Positions 23,658 through 46,915 of a stretch of DNA of 64,000 nucleotides are shown piece by piece. The notes under the pieces are model-generated. The model did no database searches. It was not told the DNA's origin and saw only the letters and a program-made list of their open reading frames with translations. Location of the stretch: NCBI GenBank assembly GCA_028287505.1, contig JAQBPN010000001.1, forward strand, positions 62,001 through 126,000. Reading direction: 5' to 3'. The DNA comes from Fibrobacterota bacterium. Lineage in GTDB: Bacteria > Fibrobacterota > Fibrobacteria > UBA11236. Within the stretch, counting starts at the first letter, position 1. Each line of letters opens with the position of its first letter. The position numbers were made by a program, and so were the translations under genes.

Positions 23658-24878
23658 TTAAAGTTGCTGGGATAGCTGAATCAGGTATACCGTGGAGATT
23701 ACCACCGTCGCGATGGAACTCACCACGAAAAGGATCTCCTTGAAGTTGGCGTATCCGGACCGCTTCACGTAAACATGGTCGCCGGGGTAGAGATGATTGC
23801 TGGAAAGATCGATTGTTTCCGCTTTTCCATCCACGCGCACCACCATCACTTTTCCCACGAACTGCGAATTCGATGAGATGCCGGCCTCGGCCATGTAATC
23901 GCGGATACTCTGCCCGGGGACATAGCTGTAAGCATACGGCTTGCCCACCTCGCCTTCCACGTAGATCTTGAGATCCTTGCCGAAGAACTCGATAACATCC
24001 CCGTCTTGGGGAGAATATTCCAGCAGCTCGGTGCCCACCAGGACTTTGCCGGAATTGAGCCGGGCCGCCCGGAGATCGAAGGCCTTGGAGAATCCCGCTA
24101 TTTCCGTGGCAATCTCGCCGAGCCGCAGCTTGGAGCCGCGAAGCTGGTAATAATAGGAGGCATTCGACATCAACAATTCGATTTTCGGTTGCGACAAATC
24201 GATACGGGGAACCATCACGCGGTCCCCCATTTGCAGAACGGGGTTGGAGAGGACGTTTCCGGTACGGTAGTAATCGCCGATATTGATCTCGACCTTGGAC
24301 CCGTCCCTTTTCAGGATTTGCACCATGGGAAGTTGGGCCGACTTCGAAAACCCGCCCGCTTTCAGGATGATTTCGCTGACCCTGGCGTTTCCGGACACGC
24401 TGAAAATGCCGGGCGAGTTGACCTCGCCGACCACTCCCACCTTGATGAGCTTGATCTGCCGGATGCTGATGTAGACAAGGTCTTTTTTGAACTCGTGTCC
24501 CAGGGCATCCTTGATTTTCACCTTGGCATCCGCGAGGGTCAGATTCTCCAGCTTGATTGGCGCCACCCCGGGAAAGGCGAGGTAGGATTCCGGAGAAACC
24601 TTCAGATTGTAGTTCTTGCCCGCGAAGATGAGGAATTCATCCCCCGGTCCGACGATATATTCCTTTTCGTCCAGGGGCGATTCATAGGGAATGCTCGGGG
24701 GGGTTGAACCGCTCATGAATTCATCGGGAATGTCCTGGGAGAACATGCCATGCAAATCCTGGTGGTCGCCCCCTTGATTCATCCCCTGCGTCTGCGCCTG
24801 CGCCAGGATTGACGGCGCCAAAGGCAGCAGGCAAAGCCATTTTTTCCAGTCCGCGGCCATCCTCATTCTACGTGTCAT
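23658..24878 (-). CDS. Wza-like polysaccharide export protein (SLBB domains)
   Basis: This 406-residue outer-membrane export protein has a signal peptide (about WLCLLPLAPSILAQAQ), a Poly_export domain beginning YIVGPGDEFLIFAG, and SLBB-type beta-grasp segments (KVGVVGEVNSPGIFSVSGNA and KIYVEGEVGKPYAYSYVPGQ). It ends in a membrane helix (ILFVVSSIATVVISTVYLI). The signal lacks a convincing lipobox cysteine, unlike E. coli Wza. ATG 24878 overlaps the upstream glycosyltransferase by 11 bases. The longest frame adds 86 low-quality residues and is rejected. It should form the outer-membrane exit for the polymer. Confidence 0.86.
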   Translation of the reverse strand: MTRRMRMAADWKKWLCLLPLAPSILAQAQTQGMNQGGDHQDLHGMFSQDIPDEFMSGSTPPSIPYESPLDEKEYIVGPGDEFLIFAGKNYNLKVSPESYLAFPGVAPIKLENLTLADAKVKIKDALGHEFKKDLVYISIRQIKLIKVGVVGEVNSPGIFSVSGNARVSEIILKAGGFSKSAQLPMVQILKRDGSKVEINIGDYYRTGNVLSNPVLQMGDRVMVPRIDLSQPKIELLMSNASYYYQLRGSKLRLGEIATEIAGFSKAFDLRAARLNSGKVLVGTELLEYSPQDGDVIEFFGKDLKIYVEGEVGKPYAYSYVPGQSIRDYMAEAGISSNSQFVGKVMVVRVDGKAETIDLSSNHLYPGDHVYVKRSGYANFKEILFVVSSIATVVISTVYLIQLSQQL

Positions 24879-26028
24879 GTGATTCCATATTCCTTTGGGT
24901 CGGCCCCGCAACCGCCATGCTTGTTTCTTCCCCGCCTGCGGCTTCCCGGTAGAGCCGCAAGTAGTTTTCCGCGGTCCTGCCGATCGAGAAATCCAGGGCA
25001 TAGCGATAGGCCGGCTCCACCAAGCGCCGCTGGTCCGCGGGGTTTTCAAGAAAGGCTTCGATTTTTCCCGCGAGGTCCGCCGCGTCTTCGGATTTGAAAA
25101 GAGCGGATCGCCTGCCCCCGCCGGCTTTTTCGGCAAGCACAGGGTAATCGGAGGCCAGCACCGGGACCTTCGCCAAAAAGCTTTCCAGCATGATCAGACA
25201 GGACCCTTCCCGGCGGGAAGGAATGATGATCAGGTCGAACCGATGCAACTCCCCGGAAATTCCCGGCCGGGCCTCATTGAAGTGGACGTTGGCTCCCGGC
25301 TCCATGGCTTTTTCAAGCTTATCCCGGTCCGGGCCATCGCCGAACAAATCGCACCTGAAGCGGACGGACTTTCGGCCCAGGATGTTCAAGGCCGTGATCA
25401 GGATGTCCTGCCCTTTCTCCCGCCGGAAACTTCCGATACAGGCCAGGCGGATTTCCCGTTCCCCTTGACCTGGGGAAACCGGAGCCGCTCCGGGATCGGC
25501 AATCGGAAGCACGGCTCCATTTTCAACCAAGGCCGTGTTCCGGAACACCAGGTAATTCCTGCGGTAGAACTCCCTTTGGTAGGGAGTGATGAAGACGATT
25601 TTCGCGAAAAGGAACTGGGAAAGGAAATTCATCGCGGCCGTCTTCCAAGGGTGCCGCAGGGTGGAATGCTTGGTCGAGATGATCTTTACCCGCGGATTCA
25701 GCAGTTTCAACAATACGCAGGTCTTGTCGCATTCGTAAAGATGGGAATGGATCAAAGTGATGCCCTGGAGGGTCAGGAACCGGTTCAAAACCTTGGCGGC
25801 CGACCATCCATATGCCAAGGGCAGCCCCAATTCCGTGAACTGGAAATCGTTCCGGCCGCGCAGGGCCATCGCCCGATCCGTCAGCTTTCCGCCGCGGCCC
25901 AGCAAAACCAGATGGAATGCGAATTCATCCGATTCCAAAAACGCCTCGATCAGATTCAACACCAGGTTTTCCGCCCCGCCGATTTCAAGGTTCGGCAAAA
26001 AAATCGCCGCCTTGATCCGAGCGTCCAT
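24868..26028 (-). CDS. GT4-family glycosyltransferase
   Basis: A 386-residue GT-B enzyme with AAIFLPNLEIGGAENLVLNL at the N-terminus and ILIHSHLYECDK-type acceptor-domain strands (here LIHSHLYECDK). The donor domain contains IRLACIGSFRREKGQDILI and the SRREGSCLIMLESFLAKVPV motif. ATG 26028 has GGCGGG just upstream and lies ten bases after the PorV-like gene. As the first glycosyltransferase of the operon it may act early in repeat-unit assembly. No polyprenyl-phosphate sugar-1-phosphate transferase, the usual initiating enzyme, is visible in the window. Confidence 0.87.
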   Translation of the reverse strand: MDARIKAAIFLPNLEIGGAENLVLNLIEAFLESDEFAFHLVLLGRGGKLTDRAMALRGRNDFQFTELGLPLAYGWSAAKVLNRFLTLQGITLIHSHLYECDKTCVLLKLLNPRVKIISTKHSTLRHPWKTAAMNFLSQFLFAKIVFITPYQREFYRRNYLVFRNTALVENGAVLPIADPGAAPVSPGQGEREIRLACIGSFRREKGQDILITALNILGRKSVRFRCDLFGDGPDRDKLEKAMEPGANVHFNEARPGISGELHRFDLIIIPSRREGSCLIMLESFLAKVPVLASDYPVLAEKAGGGRRSALFKSEDAADLAGKIEAFLENPADQRRLVEPAYRYALDFSIGRTAENYLRLYREAAGGEETSMAVAGPTQRNMESHDT

Positions 26029-26038
26029 GTACCCGCCG

Positions 26039-27097
26039 CTAGATGAGCGCATACCGGATCGTCAGGGCATGGACCCAACTGAGGCCATACCAATACTGCA
26101 CCGCATAATCCAACCCGATTGCGTCGGCCTGGAACGTGAATCCGCTCGCAAGCTTGAGCGCATTGCCGCCCTGAAGCTCGCCCGGCCGCTGGTCGGTGGC
26201 CTTGAGGAAGTAGTAGCGGGTTTCCACCCAATCGAGGCGGCTGCCCGCGCGCAGGGTGAGACTGGGATTATATGCATACTCGATGCCGCCGGATAGGCGC
26301 GGCGTGTCATGCCAGGGCAATTCCAGGTCCACCGCCAGCTTGGCCTTGGGAAGATCCAAAGGGAAATAATACATGCCCCCCTTGAGGGAAACCGGCAGGA
26401 GCCCTCCCGTGCGGCCGTCAACGGTATGGGCCACCTCTTTCCGGCCCAGGTTCAGCAGCGCCAGGCCGAACCCCAGGTTGCGGACATTCGGTTGGTACTG
26501 CAGGCCCAAGTCCACGCCCCAGCCGAGGGCCAACTGGGACCCTTCATAGTCTCCCAGATATTCCGACAACCCCTTCAGCGTCGCTCCCAGGCGTAGATTG
26601 TCGTTGGCTTTCCTGGAAGCGGTGAAGGATGGGTTGAAGGATACCGGAATGTCTTTCTTGCCGGACGCGTTTCCCTGTTCGTCCAATTCTTCGATGCGGC
26701 CGTAATTGATATAGGCGGCGGAGAAGGCGTAGGAAATCCCCCCCATTCCGGGATATCCGTACGTTACATTTCCGGAGGATACCCCCAGAAAGTGATACCG
26801 CATGGTGCCGGACACCGAGCGGACCTGTTCCGACCTGGAAACGCCGGCCGGGTTGTATCCCACGGCGTCCAGTCCCTGGGCCAGGCTCGTATAGGCCCCC
26901 GCCAAGCCGGCAGGTCGGGCGAAGATCAAAGTCTCCAAGTATTGGAACTCAGCGGTGCCGGCCCGATCGGAATAATCCTGGGCGGAAACCGTAGTGAATA
27001 CGCAAAGGGTGGATAGGATGGCCAAGCGGGCGATGAGCTGCGGCAATCGGCGCTGTAAGCTTGATTTCCGGGCTAAAATCACGGGGACAAGGTACAT
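26039..27097 (-). CDS. PorV/PorQ-like outer-membrane beta-barrel protein
   Basis: This 352-residue protein has a signal peptide ending near VFTTVSAQ, followed by the family's N-terminal signature: FLQ-like strands and RPAGLAGAYTSLAQGLDAVGYNPAGVSR (positions about 60-90), where the A-x-x-YNPAG motif is typical of PorV/PorQ/UPF0164 and FadL-like barrels. The remainder alternates amphipathic strands and ends in an aromatic strand (VHALTIRYALI). PorV-type proteins shuttle type IX secretion substrates in FCB bacteria, which fits the C-terminal domains seen on secreted enzymes nearby. Here it heads the exopolysaccharide operon, so a role in polymer export is an alternative. The ATG lacks a clear ribosome site. 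Confidence 0.78.
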   Translation of the reverse strand: MYLVPVILARKSSLQRRLPQLIARLAILSTLCVFTTVSAQDYSDRAGTAEFQYLETLIFARPAGLAGAYTSLAQGLDAVGYNPAGVSRSEQVRSVSGTMRYHFLGVSSGNVTYGYPGMGGISYAFSAAYINYGRIEELDEQGNASGKKDIPVSFNPSFTASRKANDNLRLGATLKGLSEYLGDYEGSQLALGWGVDLGLQYQPNVRNLGFGLALLNLGRKEVAHTVDGRTGGLLPVSLKGGMYYFPLDLPKAKLAVDLELPWHDTPRLSGGIEYAYNPSLTLRAGSRLDWVETRYYFLKATDQRPGELQGGNALKLASGFTFQADAIGLDYAVQYWYGLSWVHALTIRYALI

Positions 27098-27213: not shown

Positions 27214-27286
27214 GAGCTAGTAGCTCAGTTGGTAGAGCAGCGCCCTTTTAAGGCGTGGGTCGTAGGTTCAAATCCTACCTGGCTCA
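27214..27286 (+). tRNA. tRNA-Lys (anticodon TTT)
   Basis: All four arms fold. The acceptor GAGCTAG pairs with CTGGCTC (one G-T wobble), D arm GCTC/GAGC closes AGTTGGTA, anticodon stem GCGCC/GGCGT closes CTTTTAA with anticodon TTT at 27247-27249, and T arm GTAGG/CCTAC closes TTCAAAT. Discriminator base A is at 27286. The 3' CCA is not encoded. A strong intrinsic terminator begins eight bases downstream, so the gene appears to be transcribed alone. Confidence 0.97.
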
Positions 27287-27342: not shown

Positions 27343-27483
27343 GTCGTGCCGGGATGGCCGCGCACTCTATCTTTGAAGAAACCCAAATTCACAAAAATAG
27401 TCAGGATTTTATCAAGCGATTTTTTAAACCTTCCATAAGCCATTACTAATTAAAGAGTTACCCTTGATATGACCAACTGGGAC

Positions 27484-27501
27484 AATTCACAAGAGTGAAT
27501 T
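27484..27501. promoter_or_regulatory. Palindrome site A upstream of the TIGR02147 gene
   Basis: AATTCAC-AAGA-GTGAATT is a palindrome with seven-base arms, 89 bp before the ATG at 27590. Its core TTCACAAGAGTGAA matches the exact repeated motif TTCACAGTTGTGAA at 11 of 14 positions (differences only in the centre). A GATTAT hexamer starts at 27549, about 57 bp downstream of the site centre. Binding by the TIGR02147 product (autoregulation) is an inference. Confidence 0.5.
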
Positions 27502-27589
27502 AAAAAGGGGCCTTCAAGGTGTTTCCGGAAGCTAATTGCAACTACCAGGATTATTCTTGAGTTCTGCGACGGACCAACCGCAGAGGCAC

Positions 27590-28438
27590 ATGAAAAGCAT
27601 CATAGACAAGCTCTTCGAGTACGATAACTACCGTACCTTCCTGGAAGATTACTACGCCTTCATGAAAAAGAAGAAGGCCGCATTCACCCTGAAGTATTTC
27701 GCGAAAAAGGCCGGACTCAACTCGGCCAGTTTCTGCATGTACATCATCGACGGGCGGCGCAACCTTTCCTATCGCACCATCCCCCGCTTCATCCAGGCTT
27801 TGGAGCTGAAGGGCAAGAAGGCGGAGTACTTCGAGGCCCTGGTCCTGATGAATCAGAGCGTTACCTTGGAGGACAAAGAGCGGTACGCCAATGTCATCAC
27901 CAAGCTGCGCAAGACCACCAAGTATTACAGCCTCAAGAAACGTCAACACGCCTATTTCGAGGAGTGGTATTATCCTGTCATACGGGAGCTCGCCGCCTTC
28001 GCCGATTGGGGAGCGGACTACACGCGCTTGGGTAAATTGGTCCGTCCCTCGATCACGTCCGACAAGGCTAAAAAAGCGGTGGAGCTGCTGTTGGATATCG
28101 GTTTGTTGGTGAAAACGGATGACGACAGGTATTCGCAGGCCGAGGTGGCCATCGATGCGGAAGGCCTGCCCCAATTCCTGATCCGCAAGGCGCGCCGGGA
28201 CTTCCTGATGAAAGGCATAGAGGCATCGGAAACCATATCCCCCCAGGAGCGGCATGTTTCCTGTTCGACGGTGGCGTTGAGCATGGAGAACTTCCATCGC
28301 GCGTCCATGTTAATGAGCGAGTTCCACAAGGAACTCGCCGAAATGACCGAGTCCGACCAGGGCCAGGCCGCCAATATCGTATTCCAGTTCAATCTGGAAG
28401 CCTTTCCCCTCTCGAACAGCAACGGCGAGAAAATCTGA
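27590..28438 (+). CDS. TIGR02147/DUF4423 family protein, putative transcriptional regulator
   Basis: The 282-residue protein begins MKSIIDKLFEYDNYRTFLED and matches the family first noted as a large paralog set in Fibrobacter succinogenes. Residues about 32-70 (LKYFAKKAGLNSASFCMYII followed by a basic RR turn and TIPRFIQALEL) look like a Cro/CI-type helix-turn-helix. The rest is helical, including a winged-helix-like TSDKAKKAVELLLDIGLLVK segment. ATG 27590 has AGAGG upstream; the TTG start 18 codons earlier is less likely. One base separates its stop codon from the next gene's ATG, so it is translationally coupled to a surface lipoprotein. It is probably a DNA-binding regulator, but no function is established for the family that I can cite. 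Confidence 0.85.
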   Translation: MKSIIDKLFEYDNYRTFLEDYYAFMKKKKAAFTLKYFAKKAGLNSASFCMYIIDGRRNLSYRTIPRFIQALELKGKKAEYFEALVLMNQSVTLEDKERYANVITKLRKTTKYYSLKKRQHAYFEEWYYPVIRELAAFADWGADYTRLGKLVRPSITSDKAKKAVELLLDIGLLVKTDDDRYSQAEVAIDAEGLPQFLIRKARRDFLMKGIEASETISPQERHVSCSTVALSMENFHRASMLMSEFHKELAEMTESDQGQAANIVFQFNLEAFPLSNSNGEKI

Positions 28439-28439
28439 G

Positions 28440-30068
28440 ATGACGTTCCGGTCCTTTTCCATCCGCGCCCTGGCGATGACGGCGGGCTTGTCGCTGTTTG
28501 CGGGCTGTACCCGCCAGGATGACGGCAGCACCGCGGGCATCACCACCATCGGCAACACCATCGCCGGTACGGTGGTGGACGACAAGGGCACCCTGGTAGC
28601 GAATGCGGAAGTGCGCCTGATCAAGCCGGATTACAATCCCGCCAACGACGCCGCGGAAACCGGATACACCGTGGTGCGCACGGACGCCAATGGCCAATAC
28701 CAGTTCACCAAGATCGAACCGGGCACGTATAACGTGGAAATCGCGAAGGAAGACCAGGCCGCATTCATCCGGGGCCTCGTTCTCACCAAGGATCGTCCCG
28801 AAGACACCGTCGCGCTGGCGGCGCTCTACAAGCCCGGGGCCATCACCATCGTCTTCGGCCGTTCCGGAGCCAAGCTGGGCGGGCACTTTTTCATGCCGGG
28901 CACCACGCGCCATCGCCGCATCGACACCACCGCCCAGCGCATCGGGTCCCTGACCCTGCCTTACGTGGCCGCGGGTCATTACACCTCCGTGCAGTACCAG
29001 GCCGCCGAGGATACCTTCGGGATCGAAGTGCTGGAACCCCGCGTGCTGGACGTGCTCCCGGAAGATACCCTGATCATGATCCCCAACACGGGCTGGGCCA
29101 TCGTACGCAAGGTGACCCTGAACACTTCGGCCACCGGCGCGAATGTGGCGGGCGACAACTACGACTTCCCTGTGCTGGTCCGCCTGACCGCTCCCGGCTT
29201 CGACTTCTCCAAAGTGCGCAAAGACGGCGCGGACATCCGCTTCGCCAAGGCCAACGGCGCCCTCCTGCCCTACTACATCAGCCGCTACGACAGCGCCTCC
29301 GGTGAAGCCGAAGCCTGGGTCAAGCTGGATACGGTCTACGGAGCCACCCGCACGCAATCCTTCTACATCCTGGCCGGCAACGCGGACTCCGCGGCCGCTT
29401 CGGACGTCAAGAACGTATTCCCTTCGGCCACCGGATACGCGGGACTCTGGCACTTCGACAACGCGGACAATCTGGCGGACGCGGTGGGCGGCAACGACGC
29501 CATCAACCACGGGGCCGAAAGCGTGGACGGCATCATCGGGAAAGCCATCCGCTTCCGCGGGTCCGCATGGGTGGACATTCCCGCCAAGGCCTTCGCGGGC
29601 ATCAGCCGGAAGATCTCCATCTCCTTCTGGCAGAAAAGCGGCGATACCCTCCAGGCCCAGCCGGGCGACATTTTCGGGGGCCAGGACGCCGCCGGAGCCG
29701 TCGTATTGCGCATGCACGATCCTTTCGGCGATACCACGGTTTACTGGGCCGCGGGCGGAACGGACCGGGTTGAGAAAAAAACGGATGCGGATGCGGAAAA
29801 CCGCTCGCGCTGGAACTTCTGGTCTTTGACCAAGGACGCCGACAAGGGAGAGATGAAGATCTACCTGAACGGCAAGGTCTGGCAGATAGCCACCGGCAAG
29901 ACCGCCTCCATCGGATTGATCCAGTCCTTTGTCCTGAGCTTCGCCGGAACGGATTCCTACGCCATCGACGAGTTCCGCCTGAGCCGGGCTGCGGGCTCCG
30001 ACGACCGGGTCAAGTTGAGCTACGAGACCCAGAAGGCCGGGACTACGGCCGTAATCATCGGCAAGTAA
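28440..30068 (+). CDS. Lipoprotein with DUF2341 and LamG-like domains
   Basis: A 542-residue lipoprotein with lipobox FAGC (Cys23). An SdrD/carboxypeptidase-regulatory-like Ig domain follows (about residues 40-115, with NTIAGTVVDDKGTLVANAEV and TDANGQYQFTKIEPGTYNVE). Next is a DUF2341 domain (about 225-325, VRLTAPGFDFSKVRKDGADI and QSFYILAGN), then a LamG/concanavalin-like lectin domain (about 340-530, GLWHFDNADNLADAVGGNDA to DEFRLSRAAGSDDRVKLSYE). DUF2341-LamG proteins are thought to bind glycans at the cell surface. It is co-translated with the TIGR02147 gene, which suggests a sensor-regulator or regulator-target pair. Confidence 0.85.
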   Translation: MTFRSFSIRALAMTAGLSLFAGCTRQDDGSTAGITTIGNTIAGTVVDDKGTLVANAEVRLIKPDYNPANDAAETGYTVVRTDANGQYQFTKIEPGTYNVEIAKEDQAAFIRGLVLTKDRPEDTVALAALYKPGAITIVFGRSGAKLGGHFFMPGTTRHRRIDTTAQRIGSLTLPYVAAGHYTSVQYQAAEDTFGIEVLEPRVLDVLPEDTLIMIPNTGWAIVRKVTLNTSATGANVAGDNYDFPVLVRLTAPGFDFSKVRKDGADIRFAKANGALLPYYISRYDSASGEAEAWVKLDTVYGATRTQSFYILAGNADSAAASDVKNVFPSATGYAGLWHFDNADNLADAVGGNDAINHGAESVDGIIGKAIRFRGSAWVDIPAKAFAGISRKISISFWQKSGDTLQAQPGDIFGGQDAAGAVVLRMHDPFGDTTVYWAAGGTDRVEKKTDADAENRSRWNFWSLTKDADKGEMKIYLNGKVWQIATGKTASIGLIQSFVLSFAGTDSYAIDEFRLSRAAGSDDRVKLSYETQKAGTTAVIIGK

Positions 30069-30462
30069 ACCGCCCCGCCCACGGCCCTTTCCAGGGCCGG
30101 GCAATAATTATTCACAGTTGTGAATTCCCTGCTTTGGGCGAAACTTGAGCTTTTAAAAGCCTGAATCCCCTGATAACCAAGCGGTTTGGAAGGTTTCCTT
30201 GATTTTTTCAAGTGAACCAGGACCCCAAACCCGGGAAAACCCATACCCTGGGAAAAGGACTGTGCCTTGGATTTCGTCCCTGGCGCATAGGCGGAAAACT
30301 ATTATAAACGCCGTATTCCCGAGGCATTGAGGCAAATCCGGGCGGGTCGCGAGGTTGGATCGCAGACCGTCAGCCTGGATGGAGACTTGGTCCCGGGTGA
30401 CATTCTTGGGTGGGGCTGCAATCGGTGGGATTCAGCGATTTTCATTTTTCCGGGAGGCGCAT
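30069..30462 (+). other. 394-bp gap upstream of the GH39 gene
   Basis: The gap holds a short hairpin (GGCCCT/AGGGCC, 30083-30098), the exact palindrome site B (30111-30124), a TGATAACC stretch at 30171 that could be a weak -10, a CTATTATAAAC box near 30299-30309 that is a better -10 candidate, and the ribosome site GGGAGG at 30452. An in-frame ATG at 30355 exists, but the segment it adds does not look like protein. No gene is supported here. Confidence 0.5.
30111..30124. promoter_or_regulatory. Palindrome site B (TTCACA-GT-TGTGAA)
   Basis: One of three exact copies in the window; with the flanking A and T it has seven-base arms. It lies 42 bp after the lipoprotein stop codon and 339 bp before the GH39 start. 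An AT-rich stretch (AATAATTA) precedes it on the plus strand, as at sites C and D. Confidence 0.55.
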
Positions 30463-32361
30463 TTGGGACGCACGTTGTCGGCCGTTTATCTGATTCTCGC
30501 CTTTGGCACGAGCCTGGTTTCCGCGGCGACGCCCTATAACATCGTGGTGGATGCGAACAAGGGGACTTCGGCCCTCAATCGGTTCTGGGAAAACTGCATC
30601 GGCTCCGACCATTTCTATACGGTGCTGCATACCGGATACGGCGGCAACGCCAAATCCGCATACGCCCTGGCCAAGACGGAATTGGGAATCAAGTCCGTAC
30701 GCGCCCACGGGATGCTGAACGACGACGTAGGCATCTACAAAGAGGACGGCTCGGGAAATCCGGTCTACAACTGGAAGAACTACGATTCCATCGCCGACTA
30801 TATCGTATCCCTGGGATGGAAGCCCATCATCGAGCTCAGCTTCATGCCCAAGGCCCTGGCTTCCGGAACCACCACCACCTGCTGGTACAATGGCGTTCCC
30901 GGCAACGTGACCCCGCCCAAGGACTATACCAAGTGGAAGAACCTGGTCACGGAGATCATCAAACACAGTGAAGCCCGGTTCGGAGCCGCGGAAGTCCAGG
31001 CCTGGCGCTGGGAGGTCTGGAATGAGCCCGATATCAAGCCGCAGTTCTTCACCGGATCCGAGGACGACTATTTCAAGATGTACGACTATGCGTCCGAAGG
31101 AGCCGTCGCGGCCGACTCCAACGTCAAAATCGGCGGGCCCGCCACCGCCATCTCGGACACCGCGGGGCTGCTGAAGCGGTTCCTGAACCATTGTATGACG
31201 ACCAACCTGGCCAACCCCGCCAAGCACAGCACCAAGGTCGACTTCATCTCCTGGCACCAATACCCCTGGAACGAAGGGGATCAGAACCCCACCGCCTTCG
31301 CCCCGCGCAATCGCGGCATCGTGCAGTTCCTGAAGCGCTATCCGACCCTGAAACTGGAAAATCTCCAGACCGAGTGGAACGCCAGCGCCAGGTACAACTA
31401 CTTCGACGACGAAGCCAACGCATCCTTCGTGGTGAAATCCGTGCATTCGCTTTTCCCGGAAATGAACCAGGGCACTCCGCCTCCCGACGTATTCAGCTTC
31501 TGGGTGGTCTCGGACATCTTCGAGGAAGGCAATCTCAGTTCCACCTCCGCTTTCGCCGGCGCCATGGGCATGATCCTGCGCCAGCGGGACGCCAAGAAGC
31601 CGTCCTACAACGCCTTCAAGATGCTGCACATGCTGGGCGATTCCAGCCTGACCCTCACGGGCGGCACCACCAACGACAAAGGCCTCAACGGATTGGCCAC
31701 CATCAGCAAGGACAAGACCAAAATCCAGGTCCTGATCTACGATCATACCTACGGGTCGGGCGCAAATCCCACCTTCGCGACCGTCAACGATTCCGTGCAC
31801 CTGCAGATCAAGAACCTGCCGTTCCCTCCCGGCAGAATCAAGGTCGAGCGCTACGGCGTGGACAAGAACCACAGCAACTCCTTCACCACCTGGGTGGCCC
31901 AGGGCCGCCCGGCCAAGCCGAGCGAAGCGCAGTGGGACCAGTTGGCCGCCGACGGCGCCTTGAAACTGCTGGATAGCGCCACTACCGTGCCCCTCACCGG
32001 CACCACCTTTTCCAAGGACTATCCGCAAGCCCAGCCAGGCGTCTCCCTGTTGGTCCTGACGGGCGAGACTCCCGTCGGGATCGCAACGCCACCTTCCGGA
32101 AAGACCGGCAACCTGGGACTGCAAGGTTCCGTGATCGGCAATGCTCTGACGGTAGGCTATACGCTGCCCAAAGACATGTCCGTGACGCTGACCCTGGTGG
32201 ACCGCCTTGGCAAGGTGGTTTCCCGGATCGAGACCGGCGGCATGCAGCGCGCCGGCGGACACCGCGTCAGCCTCGCATCGCCGTCGCCCGGCGCCTATTT
32301 CTGTATCCTGCAGTCCGGCGGAACCGTGGTGGAAACCGCGGCCGTTTCGGTTTTGCGTTAA
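30463..32361 (+). CDS. Secreted GH39-like glycoside hydrolase (beta-xylosidase type)
   Basis: This 632-residue enzyme has a signal peptide (about LGRTLSAVYLILAFGTSLVSA), a GH39 TIM barrel and a C-terminal beta domain. Catalytic residues are readable: acid/base Glu188 in RWEVWNEPDI and nucleophile Glu304 in LQTEWNAS. Early motifs FWENCIGSDHFYTVLHTGYG and KSVRAHGML are also GH39-like. It probably removes xylose or similar sugars from hemicellulose. The start is TTG 30463, with GGGAGG five bases upstream and the signal peptide beginning there. The last 70 residues (LVDRLGKVVSRIETGG and SPGAYFCILQSGG) resemble a type IX-like sorting domain. The GH5 gene follows directly. Confidence 0.83.
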   Translation: MGRTLSAVYLILAFGTSLVSAATPYNIVVDANKGTSALNRFWENCIGSDHFYTVLHTGYGGNAKSAYALAKTELGIKSVRAHGMLNDDVGIYKEDGSGNPVYNWKNYDSIADYIVSLGWKPIIELSFMPKALASGTTTTCWYNGVPGNVTPPKDYTKWKNLVTEIIKHSEARFGAAEVQAWRWEVWNEPDIKPQFFTGSEDDYFKMYDYASEGAVAADSNVKIGGPATAISDTAGLLKRFLNHCMTTNLANPAKHSTKVDFISWHQYPWNEGDQNPTAFAPRNRGIVQFLKRYPTLKLENLQTEWNASARYNYFDDEANASFVVKSVHSLFPEMNQGTPPPDVFSFWVVSDIFEEGNLSSTSAFAGAMGMILRQRDAKKPSYNAFKMLHMLGDSSLTLTGGTTNDKGLNGLATISKDKTKIQVLIYDHTYGSGANPTFATVNDSVHLQIKNLPFPPGRIKVERYGVDKNHSNSFTTWVAQGRPAKPSEAQWDQLAADGALKLLDSATTVPLTGTTFSKDYPQAQPGVSLLVLTGETPVGIATPPSGKTGNLGLQGSVIGNALTVGYTLPKDMSVTLTLVDRLGKVVSRIETGGMQRAGGHRVSLASPSPGAYFCILQSGGTVVETAAVSVLR

Positions 32362-32362
32362 G

Positions 32363-32395
32363 ATGAACATCGATAGCACGGGGATACTCGCTTGA
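32363..32395 (+). other. Ten-codon mini-ORF overlapping the GH5 start
   Basis: ATG at 32363, one base after the GH39 stop codon, opens a ten-residue frame (MNIDSTGILA) whose TGA overlaps the TTG start of the GH5 gene (TTGA). It has no ribosome site of its own and could relay ribosomes from GH39 to GH5 by termination-reinitiation. It may also be chance. Confidence 0.25.
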
Positions 32396-33924
32396 AAAAA
32401 TCCGCAACCGCATTCGCCATTTCGGCATCCTTGGCCTGCATGGGCCTCTCCGCTTTGTGCGCGCCTTCGGCCTTTGCCCAGGCTTCCCGCCCCTTCCTCA
32501 AAACCGACGGGATATACATCCGCAACGGCAACGGGACCGGGGATACGGTCTGGCTTTACGGCGTGAACTTCGGCGGCCTGTTCGTCCATGAACCCTGGAT
32601 GTCGCCCCTGGCCGGCCCCACCACGGAATGGGATTCGCGCACCACCCTGGAAACCCGCTTCGGGAAACCGGCCGCGCAAAAGCTGCTGGCCACCTATTGG
32701 GATTCCTGGGCCACCGCCGTCGACTTCAAGAACATCGCCGCCGACGGCATGAACTGCGTGCGCATGCCCGTCTACTTCCTGGATTTCATGGACGACAACG
32801 GCAATTGGCGCATGGACAGCGTCACGAAGGCCATCGACTTCGCCCGCATCGACAAGCTGGTGAATGCGGCCACCGCCGCCGGAGTCTTTACCGTGCTCGA
32901 CCTGCACGGAGCGCCCGGATCCCAGAACGGCAACCAGCATTCCGGCAAGACTACCGGCGCCAACCTGTACACCACCCCGCGCTACCAGGATATGCTGATC
33001 AAGTTCTGGACCGGCATGGCGGACCATTTCAAAGACAATCCCGCCATCGCCGGATATGATTTGCTGAACGAGCCCTCCTCCACTTTTCCCGGGGCCATGG
33101 GCCAGAACGTGGTGGACCTGTACGACCGCAGCTACAAGGCCATCCGCACCCTGGACAGCAACCATATCGTCTTCATGGAAGCCATCTGGGCCTGGAACCT
33201 GCTCCCCGATCCCAAGACCAAGGGCTGGTCCAACGTATCCTACAGCCTGCATTACTATCAGTGGACCAACAATTCCGATTTCAACACCATGAAGACTTTT
33301 TTCGACGGGAAGATCAGCGACGCCAAGACCTGGTCGGTGAAATACCAGGTGCCCCACTTCGCGGGGGAGTTCACCCTCTTCGGCAACCCCCAGGTGTGGG
33401 ATTACGGCATGACCGCCATAGTGAAGGAAAATTGGAACTGGACCTTCTGGAGCTACAAGGTGACCGGGACCAATTCGAGCTGGGGCCTGTACACGGCCAA
33501 GAATCCCGGACCCAATACTCCCAATGTGAACACGGACACCTACGACCAGATCCTCCAGAAGTGGGGCCATTGGGACACCCCCACCTACTTCACGCGCAAC
33601 GCCATGGTGGGCGATGCGGTGAAGAAAGCGGCGCTGCTGCGTCCGGTGGTGCGCCCTACCCTCACCCCTACCTCGGTTGCCGGGCGGGGTAAAGAGCAAG
33701 GCCTCGCCCTGAGGCTTTCCGGCCGCGCGCTGGCAATCTCGCTTCCCCAGGCAGGTACCTGGCGCGTGACCCTGCGGAACCTCCGCGGCAAGGCCGTTCG
33801 CAGTTTGCGCGCGGAAGGAAAGTCCTTTTCGATGCCCGCGGAGGGATTGGAGAACGGCGTCTACGGAGTGACCGTCGATGGCGCGGACCAGTCCTATTCG
33901 GGCCGTATCGTCATCGAGCGTTGA
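32392..33924 (+). CDS. Secreted GH5 endoglucanase-like enzyme
   Basis: A 510-residue secreted glycoside hydrolase with signal peptide (to about SAFAQA), a GH5 catalytic barrel and a short C-terminal beta domain. The acid/base is Glu227 in GYDLLNEPSS and the nucleophile Glu326 in FAGEFTLFG; NIAADGMNCVRMPVYFLDFM and TVLDLHGAPGSQNG match conserved GH5 strands. It likely cuts cellulose or another beta-glucan. TTG 32392 is the only start that keeps the whole signal peptide. The C-terminus (VTLRNLRGKAVRSLRAEGK to IVIER) resembles the tail domain of the upstream GH39 enzyme, suggesting a shared export route. Confidence 0.87.
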   Translation: MKKSATAFAISASLACMGLSALCAPSAFAQASRPFLKTDGIYIRNGNGTGDTVWLYGVNFGGLFVHEPWMSPLAGPTTEWDSRTTLETRFGKPAAQKLLATYWDSWATAVDFKNIAADGMNCVRMPVYFLDFMDDNGNWRMDSVTKAIDFARIDKLVNAATAAGVFTVLDLHGAPGSQNGNQHSGKTTGANLYTTPRYQDMLIKFWTGMADHFKDNPAIAGYDLLNEPSSTFPGAMGQNVVDLYDRSYKAIRTLDSNHIVFMEAIWAWNLLPDPKTKGWSNVSYSLHYYQWTNNSDFNTMKTFFDGKISDAKTWSVKYQVPHFAGEFTLFGNPQVWDYGMTAIVKENWNWTFWSYKVTGTNSSWGLYTAKNPGPNTPNVNTDTYDQILQKWGHWDTPTYFTRNAMVGDAVKKAALLRPVVRPTLTPTSVAGRGKEQGLALRLSGRALAISLPQAGTWRVTLRNLRGKAVRSLRAEGKSFSMPAEGLENGVYGVTVDGADQSYSGRIVIER

Positions 33925-34313: not shown

Positions 34314-35699
34314 TTAAAGGACCACCTTGGTCACGGCTTGGGATGTGCCGCTCTTCCAGACCAGCAAATGGGTTCCCCGGGCGGAAGCAAATGTCAGTTC
34401 CCCAGGCCCCTTGGCATTGAAATTTTTCACCGCCAGGACCTTGCCGTCCAGGCTGCGCAACTCGACGGTCTGCAATCCCGCCTGTTCCAGGTCGATCAGG
34501 ATGCGGCCGGGCAATACCGACCAGTTCATGCGGCTCGCCGCCGCGATGCTGGATTGCTTCTCAGGAGTGATGTCGGTGGTGGGTTCCGTCCCATACCAGA
34601 CCTTGGTCACCCTGCCGTCCCCGTAACGCGTATCTTCCGTCTGGCAGCGCGTGGTCACGTATATCGCTCCCACGGCGTCCTGCTTCACGTCGATAGGGCA
34701 TTGGAAGGCCGAGAAGTTCTTCGCGCCGCTGTGGGCCGCGTCCTGCATCTTGAGCTGGGTCACGTCGATGCCGCCGAAGAAGTATTTATCGCGGTACTCC
34801 GCGGGAAAGTTGGTGCCCGTATACCAGAGCGATCCGATCATGGCCCGGCCGCTGATGCCGGCGCTGTTGGCGGTCCACAGCGGGTTCTTGGTTCCCGTTC
34901 CGCCGAAGCCGTAGTTGGTGCCGGGGGGGCCGAATTCGTTCACCCGGTCGTCGCCGGAGTTGCCGCGCACTTCGCTGAACCAGAAGGCCTTGGTGTTGGA
35001 GTTGTAGGACAGGGTGAAGGGCTGGCGCAGACCCCAGAAGTATACCGCCCGCGCATCGCCGGTGTTGGTGGTGTAGAAGGGGTTGTCGGAGGGGATGTCC
35101 CCTTCGGGGATGTTGATGCGGAGGATTTTCCCCTCGACGCGGTTCTTGGTCTGGGCATTGGTGGGCCCGGGTTCCCCGTCATTGATGGCGCCGCGACATC
35201 CCGAGGCTACGTAGAGCTTGCCGTCCTCGCCGATGGCCAGGCCGCCGCCGTGGTGATATTGGGGGCCCGAATCGCCCAGGCTGATCATCAATTTCTCGGA
35301 GTTCCCGTCCACCACGTCGCCCGTCACCGTGAAGCGGCTGACCTGGTCGATGCCGTTGTTGCCGCTGGCCTTGGTGTACCAGACGTAGATGTAATTGTTG
35401 GTCGCGAAATTGGGATCGGCCAGGATGCACATCATCCCTTTCTCGAAGCGGCTGTTGGTCTTCGAGCTCCAGTCCATGAACGGAGTGGCGACCTTCACGC
35501 CGTTTTTGATCAGAGTGACCTTGCCGTATTTCTCGATGGCAAGGATGCGCCCGTCGGGCAGCACCGCGGACGATACGGCATCCAGGCCGGTGATCAAATC
35601 CTTTTGGGTGAATCCCGTTGGCAGGGCGGACAGGTCGGTGACCAGCAGGGCCGACACGACCAAGGCCAGGAGGGGTAATAGGGCGTACTTACGGATCAT
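34314..35699 (-). CDS. Secreted PQQ-type glucose/sorbosone dehydrogenase
   Basis: The 461-residue product has a signal peptide (MIRKYALLPLLALVVSALLV...) and a GSDH six-bladed propeller domain. Recognisable segments are VSSAVLPDGRILAIEKYGKV, CILADPNFATNNYIYVWYTK, QYHHGGGLAIGEDGKLYVAS (with the conserved active-site His) and GKILRINIPEGDIPSDNPFY. Such enzymes oxidise aldose sugars or sorbosone with PQQ. The last 70 residues (VELRSLDGKVLAVKNF to KVVL) form a sorting-type beta domain. AAGGAG before ATG 35699 fixes the start. Upstream is palindrome C with a well-placed -10 box, indicating control by the shared factor. Confidence 0.85.
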   Translation of the reverse strand: MIRKYALLPLLALVVSALLVTDLSALPTGFTQKDLITGLDAVSSAVLPDGRILAIEKYGKVTLIKNGVKVATPFMDWSSKTNSRFEKGMMCILADPNFATNNYIYVWYTKASGNNGIDQVSRFTVTGDVVDGNSEKLMISLGDSGPQYHHGGGLAIGEDGKLYVASGCRGAINDGEPGPTNAQTKNRVEGKILRINIPEGDIPSDNPFYTTNTGDARAVYFWGLRQPFTLSYNSNTKAFWFSEVRGNSGDDRVNEFGPPGTNYGFGGTGTKNPLWTANSAGISGRAMIGSLWYTGTNFPAEYRDKYFFGGIDVTQLKMQDAAHSGAKNFSAFQCPIDVKQDAVGAIYVTTRCQTEDTRYGDGRVTKVWYGTEPTTDITPEKQSSIAAASRMNWSVLPGRILIDLEQAGLQTVELRSLDGKVLAVKNFNAKGPGELTFASARGTHLLVWKSGTSQAVTKVVL

Positions 35700-35763
35700 C
35701 TTGAGCTCCTTACTGAATAACCCCATCGGCTGGGTATGCCGGGTCCCCTCCCGTACTGGAGAG

Positions 35764-35819: not shown

Positions 35820-35833
35820 TTCACAGTTGTGAA
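35820..35833. promoter_or_regulatory. Palindrome site C (TTCACA-GT-TGTGAA)
   Basis: An exact copy of the motif, 121 bp upstream of the sugar dehydrogenase start codon and 97 bp after the end of the multicopper oxidase gene. The AT-rich flank AATATTTA lies on the promoter side. Confidence 0.6.
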
Positions 35834-45785: not shown

Positions 45786-46784
45786 TTACCGTGCCCGGGG
45801 CACGATCCCGGAAAAGGCGTTACCATCCCCGGTAACGCTCAGGATATGACTGCCGGCCCCCAAGGCCGGAAGCGATATCTCCATCGGAACTCCTGCGTCC
45901 GCCCGAACCGGGCGGGAAAAAACCGTGCGTCCCTGGAAATCGCGCAGGGATACCTTGATGGCCGATGAGCCGCCGGCCAGAAAGGAGGCCGGGATGAAAA
46001 GCGTATTTCCGGTCACGCCGATCGCGGCGTTGGCGGCCAGGGTTTGCGGGACAAGGCCGGCAGTGGCCGAATAGGAGTCGTCGAGGGTGACGGCGGCGGA
46101 ATCGGGAATGGCGAAGGAGTTGTTCAGGGGCCGGATGAACACGTCCTTGAAATCGACCTTCATCACCAGGTCGGTGGCGTGCAATTGCAAGCCGATGTAT
46201 CCGTTCAGAACCGATGCGGTGTATTCCGCGCAGAAATTCCCGTTCAACTCGTGGCGGACTCTGCCGCCGTTGGCCGTGACCAGGAACTGGTTCCAGCCGT
46301 TGGCGTTGATGAACTTGCGGCAGGGATCATTCAATACCATGTTCGCGTCCGTGGGATAAGCCCCTTCGGGATACATGGAACCGTCGAGTCCGTCCCCGAT
46401 GTCCACCTGGTAGCCCTTCATCCGATGGGCGGTGGAATCGAGGAAATCGGAGCGGTACTGCAATCCGCTATTGGTGTATCCCGCCGGGGTCTGCCAAAGC
46501 CTGGCCTTCACGGAAAGGACGAAATCCGAATACTTGCGGTTGGTATGGCAGAAGGTGTTGTAGGTGGCTTTTCCCTGGCCTTGCAGCATCCCGCTGTCCA
46601 CGTGCCAATAGTCCGCTTGATAACCCCATCCGGAAAGGTCCTTGCCGTCGAACAGCTTCATCCAAACCGGTTTCGGCGGACTGCTTCCCATCGCCAGGCC
46701 GGTGACGACCAAGACCAAGGCGAATGCAGCCGGAACGAACCGGAGGCGCTTGCGACTGCTTTTTGGGTTGTTTTGGATGAGCAT
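45786..46784 (-). CDS. Secreted DUF1080 (3-keto-disaccharide hydrolase) protein
   Basis: This 332-residue protein has a signal segment (FVPAAFALVLVVTGLAMGSS) and a DUF1080 concanavalin-like domain. WMKLFDGKDLSGWGYQADYW is the family's opening signature; NSGLQYRSDF and GYQVDIGDG follow in the usual order. Characterised members hydrolyse 3-keto-glycosides, products of sugar oxidation at C3. The last 80 residues (SLRDFQGRTVFSRPVRADAG and GAGSHILSVTGDG) form a sorting-type beta domain. ATG 46784 has AGGA upstream. A TATAAT box and palindrome D lie upstream in the same layout as at the sugar dehydrogenase gene. Confidence 0.85.
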   Translation of the reverse strand: MLIQNNPKSSRKRLRFVPAAFALVLVVTGLAMGSSPPKPVWMKLFDGKDLSGWGYQADYWHVDSGMLQGQGKATYNTFCHTNRKYSDFVLSVKARLWQTPAGYTNSGLQYRSDFLDSTAHRMKGYQVDIGDGLDGSMYPEGAYPTDANMVLNDPCRKFINANGWNQFLVTANGGRVRHELNGNFCAEYTASVLNGYIGLQLHATDLVMKVDFKDVFIRPLNNSFAIPDSAAVTLDDSYSATAGLVPQTLAANAAIGVTGNTLFIPASFLAGGSSAIKVSLRDFQGRTVFSRPVRADAGVPMEISLPALGAGSHILSVTGDGNAFSGIVPRAR

Positions 46785-46901: not shown

Positions 46902-46915
46902 TTCACAGTTGTGAA
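46902..46915. promoter_or_regulatory. Palindrome site D (TTCACA-GT-TGTGAA)
   Basis: The third exact copy, 118 bp upstream of the DUF1080 start codon and 17 bp after the stop codon of the MBL-fold gene. AT-rich AATGAATT lies on the promoter side, as at site C. Confidence 0.6.

Follow-up and report, generated by a model that had tools for sequence, protein, structure and literature searches.

The analysed window is a 64,000-nucleotide stretch (G000:C112:62001-126000) of the 6.07-Mb assembly G000, whose source is an uncultured relative of the plant-fibre-digesting bacterium Fibrobacter. On its plus strand, a TIGR02147/DUF4423 gene (27590-28438; ATG at 27590, stop ending at 28438) encodes a 282-residue protein that scores 220.1 bits against TIGR02147 (cut-off 50) over model positions 3-271 of 272, which identifies it as a full-length member, and 91.6 bits against DUF4423 (PF14394, gathering threshold 30) over residues 110-274. 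On the same strand follows the gene of a 542-residue lipoprotein (28440-30068; ATG at 28440) with a signal peptide and the lipobox FAG-C23, in which Cys23 is the lipid-bearing residue. As the original prediction held, a single base (28439) separates the regulator stop codon from the lipoprotein ATG, and a palindrome precedes the regulator gene, TTCACAAGAGTGAA at 27486-27499, lying inside the slightly longer AATTCACAAGAGTGAATT (27484-27501, plus strand) that we propose as the operator of the pair's own promoter. A half-site TTCACAA (27388-27394, plus strand) is found upstream of this operator, and a -10-like element TATTCT (27552-27557, plus strand) lies 51 nt past it. Direct reading of the upstream regions shows that half-site and operator are kept in the orthologs of two sister genomes, G003 and G005, with one spacer change in the palindrome, and that the -10-like element stands at the same distance in all three species. 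A tRNA-Lys gene (anticodon TTT, 27214-27286) ends about 200 bp ahead of the operator; on the minus strand, at 23658-26052, a polysaccharide-export-like protein adjoins a glycosyltransferase by visual inspection, possibly an exopolysaccharide locus.

No Pfam HTH profile matches the window regulator, DUF4423 alone being reported at E values up to 0.01, and its sequence profiles reach solved structures weakly. The AlphaFold model of the protein (mean pLDDT 90) has a helical XRE-type N-terminus in which helices 34-40 and 46-53 form an HTH; these helices, helix 64-70 and residues 31-70 as a whole all lie at pLDDT 97-98. In fold comparison, the N-terminal part matches C.BclI (probability 0.97, target-normalised TM 0.66), DdrO (Z 7.4, 70 residues aligned at 2.5 Å) and HigA (Z 7-8), a Z near 8 being modest when taken alone, whereas a winged helix at approximately residues 114-188, inside the DUF4423 part, matches ArsR/MarR proteins. 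The predicted Cro/CI-like HTH near residues 32-70 is therefore recovered in the model by its confident helices and XRE fold matches, and the structural check proposed for the N-terminus yields a DNA-binding fold, to which the winged helix is added. Like XRE (Cro/CI) one-component regulators, the window regulator has a five-helix HTH domain and palindromic sites; unlike them, it lacks a Pfam HTH match, carries the extra winged-helix DUF4423 part and belongs to a family with tens of paralogs per genome. The resemblance to HigA, weak both by sequence (E 0.14) and by fold, might suggest a toxin-antitoxin-like or mobile module. Such a module is highly improbable, given that the partner is a 542-residue lipoprotein with a beta-sandwich and lectin-like domains, that both the orthologous pairs and their operators are conserved between species, and that the site is common to a dispersed enzyme regulon. 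A HigBA module in particular was rejected, the neighbouring lipoprotein having no RelE/HigB-type toxin domains.

In NCBIfam, TIGR02147 (Fsuc_second) is typed as a paralog family, takes its name from Fibrobacter succinogenes and has no function given. In the literature searched, we found no paper naming TIGR02147, met DUF4423 only as a table mention, and found none giving the family a function. Of 120 genomes sampled from the phylum, 110 carry the family, frequently with 20-80 copies, and all 14 control genomes lack it. G000 alone has 56 hits, five of which (on C90, C50, C96, C129 and C47) are fragments; some of these are cut by contig ends, and the remaining ones suggest gene decay in a fast-turning family. 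Across nine genomes of the same taxonomic family, a lipoprotein gene comes next after 191 of 219 full TIGR02147 copies, compared with 38 of 443 control genes, and regulator and lipoprotein overlap by exactly four bases at 126 of the 219 compared with 8 of the 443 controls. After hand curation, 48 of the 51 full copies in G000 have a partner, in one case at a distance of 176 bp. In another family of the phylum, the pair is present at all 23 readable loci, and three more loci missed by our script show it as well. The coupled two-gene unit seen in the window thus recurs throughout the phylum, and the pairing is a systematic rule, not an accident.

What recurs is the lipoprotein, not the DUF2341/LamG architecture that the original prediction had singled out. 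Among the 48 G000 partners, CarboxypepD_reg occurs in 28, DUF2341 in 13 and LamG in 13, and a few instead carry CBM6/35, LRR, Kelch or ThuA domains; since the outer domain varies, DUF2341/LamG is one flavour of partner and the constant partner is a lipoprotein with a short common motif after the lipid cysteine. This motif (e.g. AGGGTETGN) is found in 138 of the 191 partners and in 10 of 151 proteins of a rough control set, a comparison that is indicative only because the control set contains false lipoproteins. The genes next after three other pairs (L038:3138-4961, L056:5129-7054 and L070:2474-4288) encode two glucose/sorbosone dehydrogenases (GSDH) and one alpha-L-fucosidase, hinting that other regulator-lipoprotein pairs too sit by carbohydrate genes.

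The window lipoprotein itself carries the motif as AGITTIGN. Pfam assigns CarboxypepD_reg to residues 40-121 and DUF2341 (PF10102, 45.4 bits, gathering threshold 23.4) to residues 262-327, while Laminin_G_3 (PF13385) has no match at E values up to 0.01 and the lectin-like part has no Pfam match. The AlphaFold model (pLDDT 85) comprises an N-terminal beta-sandwich, the DUF2341 region and a C-terminal concanavalin-A-like jelly roll, whose best whole-domain match in Foldseek is domain 4 of the arabinanase AbnA (216 columns, target-normalised TM 0.70, E 2.8e-9). Of the three domains first read from the sequence, DUF2341 accordingly stands and the lectin-like domain stands by fold only, whereas the supposed Ig domain is the CarboxypepD_reg beta-sandwich. 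Neurotoxin chains top the fold list of the lipoprotein, a reflection of the common jelly-roll fold and no sign of toxicity. The lipoprotein evolves faster than the regulator, with 74% and 60% identity to its G005 and G003 orthologs, compared with 91% and 89%. Glycan binding by the lipoprotein is plausible.

The palindrome ahead of the pair is not confined to this promoter. Perfect TTCACAGTTGTGAA copies occur in the window at 30111, 35820 and 46902, and the pattern TTCACNNNNGTGAA occurs 31 times in the 6.07 Mb of G000, compared with none for a reversed control pattern, above chance. The extended palindrome TTCACANNTGTGAA was counted in 150 genomes of the phylum: G000 has 17 copies, G003 has 16 and G005 has 12, the remaining 147 have no more than one apiece, and the congeners G001, G002 and G004 have none. 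An ortholog of the window protein at 89% identity or above exists in precisely the three site-rich genomes, G000, G003 and G005, the next best match being 43%. In addition, among 232 TIGR02147 genes sampled, TTCAC-N4-GTGAA within 400 bp upstream is found only before the window gene and its two orthologs. In the pair's own operator the spacer, AAGA, does not show the outer A..T symmetry found at most target sites. The arm words TGTGA and TTCACA are similar to those of the CRP operator (consensus TGTGA-N6-TCACA) and the Rex operator (consensus TTGTGAA-N4-TTCACAA), but the window site, TTCACA-N2-TGTGAA, has the reversed arm order and another spacing.

As short inverted repeats in intergenic DNA, the copies could in principle be RNA or DNA structural elements, such as terminators or repeats, with no protein reader. 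This is scarcely credible: the arms are fixed while the spacer varies, there is no T-run terminator pattern, the sites lie upstream of gene starts, and they are absent from congeners without the regulator. The match between site number and ortholog argues strongly, yet not conclusively, for the TIGR02147 protein as the reader, because the three site-rich genomes share a genus. Other lineage-specific factors therefore exist in them, and an unrelated regulator confined to these genomes could read TTCACANNTGTGAA, the TIGR02147 pair being merely one of its targets. We consider this improbable, as no regulator other than the TIGR02147 protein is recognised among the Pfam-annotated targets, and as the paralogs nearest to this protein carry palindromes that match its own in geometry and differ by one base in each arm, a pattern that a shared external factor would not account for.

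These paralog palindromes read GTTTAC-N4-GTAAAC and stand before seven of the eight paralogs nearest the window protein; the seven are not independent events because they are partly orthologs of each other. At one near paralog, G000_19, the palindrome brackets the pair as in the window, before the regulator and after the lipoprotein (GTTTACN4GTAAAC at L047:12131 and L047:15045), the second copy lying 47 bp before a dienelactone-hydrolase-like gene. Across the family, taking just the strongest inverted repeat ahead of each paralog gives only a modest excess over shuffles. Conserved upstream inverted repeats scoring at least 5 are found in 11 of 41 ortholog groups, including that of the window gene, compared with 0-3 under three false pairing rules; all 11 are different, and several groups hold the arms while the spacer changes (e.g. 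TGCGCCCAAACGGGCGCA and TGCGCCCATTTGGGCGCA). A Mantel test of protein against palindrome similarity over 102 representatives is null overall, and palindromes are common to pairs of proteins at 50-70% identity only, in 15-31% compared with approximately 0.6%. The protein-palindrome link is thus confined to proteins above about 50% identity and to the clade of the window protein, so that only for a dozen or so groups, and not for all, is a private operator established. The conserved operator of the regulator's own gene, the one-base-per-arm variants of its nearest paralogs and the tracking of site number with the ortholog among the 150 genomes all uphold the original nomination of the TIGR02147 product, and we regard the window protein as very probably the reader of the repeated palindrome, which is the best explanation of these sequence patterns; on the same grounds it presumably binds the palindrome physically.

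The sites point to a regulon. All 24 A-type sites examined in G000 lie upstream of gene starts, and the genes behind them encode mostly extracellular carbohydrate enzymes; the targets include six GSDH, two 3-keto-disaccharide hydrolases, a ThuA protein, two GH16, two GH18, a GH39 and a PL14, together with a GFO/IDH/MocA oxidoreductase, a DUF2341-LamG protein and esterases (SASA and feruloyl-type). Genes of a similar kind stand behind the sites of G003 and G005, and for 14 target genes at 13 sites the site is kept at the sister-species ortholog (at least 64% identity). Three proposed targets lie in the window. The TTCACAGTTGTGAA copy at 30111-30124 (plus strand) precedes a GH39 gene (30463-32361, plus strand; PF01229, 268 bits) by approximately 350 bp from its start codon; in G005 and G003 the GH39 orthologs sit away from the regulator, on different contigs, and there, too, the palindrome precedes them. 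On the minus strand, the copy at 35820-35833, with TATATT 51 nt downstream, precedes a GSDH gene (34314-35726; PF07995, 133 bits), and the copy at 46902-46915, with TATAATAT 50 nt downstream, precedes a 3-keto-disaccharide hydrolase gene of the DUF1080 type (45786-46784; PF06439, 97 bits), whose G003 ortholog (72% identity) retains the site. In other systems, DUF1080-type 3-ketoglycoside hydrolases contribute to the periplasmic oxidation of glycosides (PMC9007349), and some of the regulon genes may form a pathway of this kind. By eye, the tails of the GH39 protein and of a GH5 protein, both encoded within 30463-33924, resemble the basic C-terminal, type IX-like tails reported for Fibrobacter enzymes.

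The direction of control is suggested by promoter geometry. Boxes resembling TATACTAT are enriched over chance at 48-53 nt beyond the palindrome, with 11 in one 5-bp window compared with a shuffle maximum of 8. The pooled spacing test gives p = 0.0005; taken singly, G000 gives 0.007, G003 a marginal 0.06, and G005 is not significant (p = 0.66). A box approximately 50 nt past the site puts the site near -70, the class I activator position, suggesting activation. Many XRE-type factors are repressors, however, and the protein might instead read the palindrome as one, blocking its promoters until a glycan-derived ligand releases it. Some divergent family members (L069 and L074, i.e., G000_46 and G000_51, and others) indeed have conserved palindromes 7-20 nt from a -10-like box, and these members may be repressors. 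For the window protein we consider repression unlikely, as its site is centred approximately 70 bp upstream of the predicted transcription start, as for class I activators, and the spacing is near-constant (51, 51 and 51 nt in the three orthologs, 48-53 nt at many targets). On balance, this geometry favours activation through the palindrome.

Taken together, these patterns suggest that the window protein is an activator of its own operon and of a dispersed carbohydrate-enzyme regulon, acting through the palindrome, a proposal that we consider likely as a whole. Points against it are the spacer of the pair's own operator with its deviating symmetry, the long distance between site and start codon at GH39, the spacing results of G005 and G003 taken singly, the missing correlation of protein and palindrome over all paralogs, and the common genus of the three site-rich genomes. 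The TIGR02147 protein would be a one-component transcription factor that binds TTCAC(A)-N2/N4-(T)GTGAA, probably as a dimer, its N-terminal XRE-type HTH reading the palindrome arms, while the DUF4423 part, with the winged helix and C-terminal helices, probably serves to detect a signal in the cytoplasm or to contact RNA polymerase. It would activate the operon that includes the co-translated surface lipoprotein, along with dispersed extracellular enzymes (GSDH, 3-keto-disaccharide hydrolases, GH16, GH18, GH39, a polysaccharide lyase and esterases). G000 has about 50 such regulator-lipoprotein pairs, many with their own palindrome. The lipoprotein is then most likely a glycan-binding surface protein made along with the enzymes that it serves. 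More speculatively, each pair could be a private receptor-regulator channel, in which the lipoprotein binds a particular glycan and passes its state to the coupled cytoplasmic regulator; we hold this to be doubtful, and the pair shows no means of carrying a signal across the envelope. Were it true, Fibrobacterota would sense glycans through tens of circuits working in parallel and built differently from two-component, ECF-sigma and Sus systems.

In Bacteroidota, polysaccharide utilization loci (PULs) are regulated by HTCS, SusR and ECF sigma/anti-sigma systems with SusC/D. By analogy, TIGR02147 pairs resemble these in having many paralogous regulators, each apparently linked to glycan proteins of the cell surface and to enzymes for carbohydrates. 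However, histidine kinase, sigma and TonB components are all missing from the TIGR02147 pair, and neither protein has a Pfam or NCBIfam match to histidine kinase or sigma-70 domains; the regulator is a cytoplasmic one-component protein translationally coupled to its lipoprotein, and the enzymes are dispersed. Structurally, the window regulator does not differ from the rest of the TIGR02147/DUF4423 family, and what is added here is the lipoprotein partner, the individual palindromes and one regulon; judged from sequence, the analysis offers a putative function for a widespread family and a concrete candidate regulon for one member. The F. succinogenes genome paper called the control of dispersed fibre-degrading enzymes in Fibrobacter-type bacteria an unanswered question and remarked that few recognisable regulators lie near cellulase genes (PMC3079729). 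If our proposal is true, the TIGR02147 family would be the missing regulator class, each member with predictable operators and every copy directly testable.
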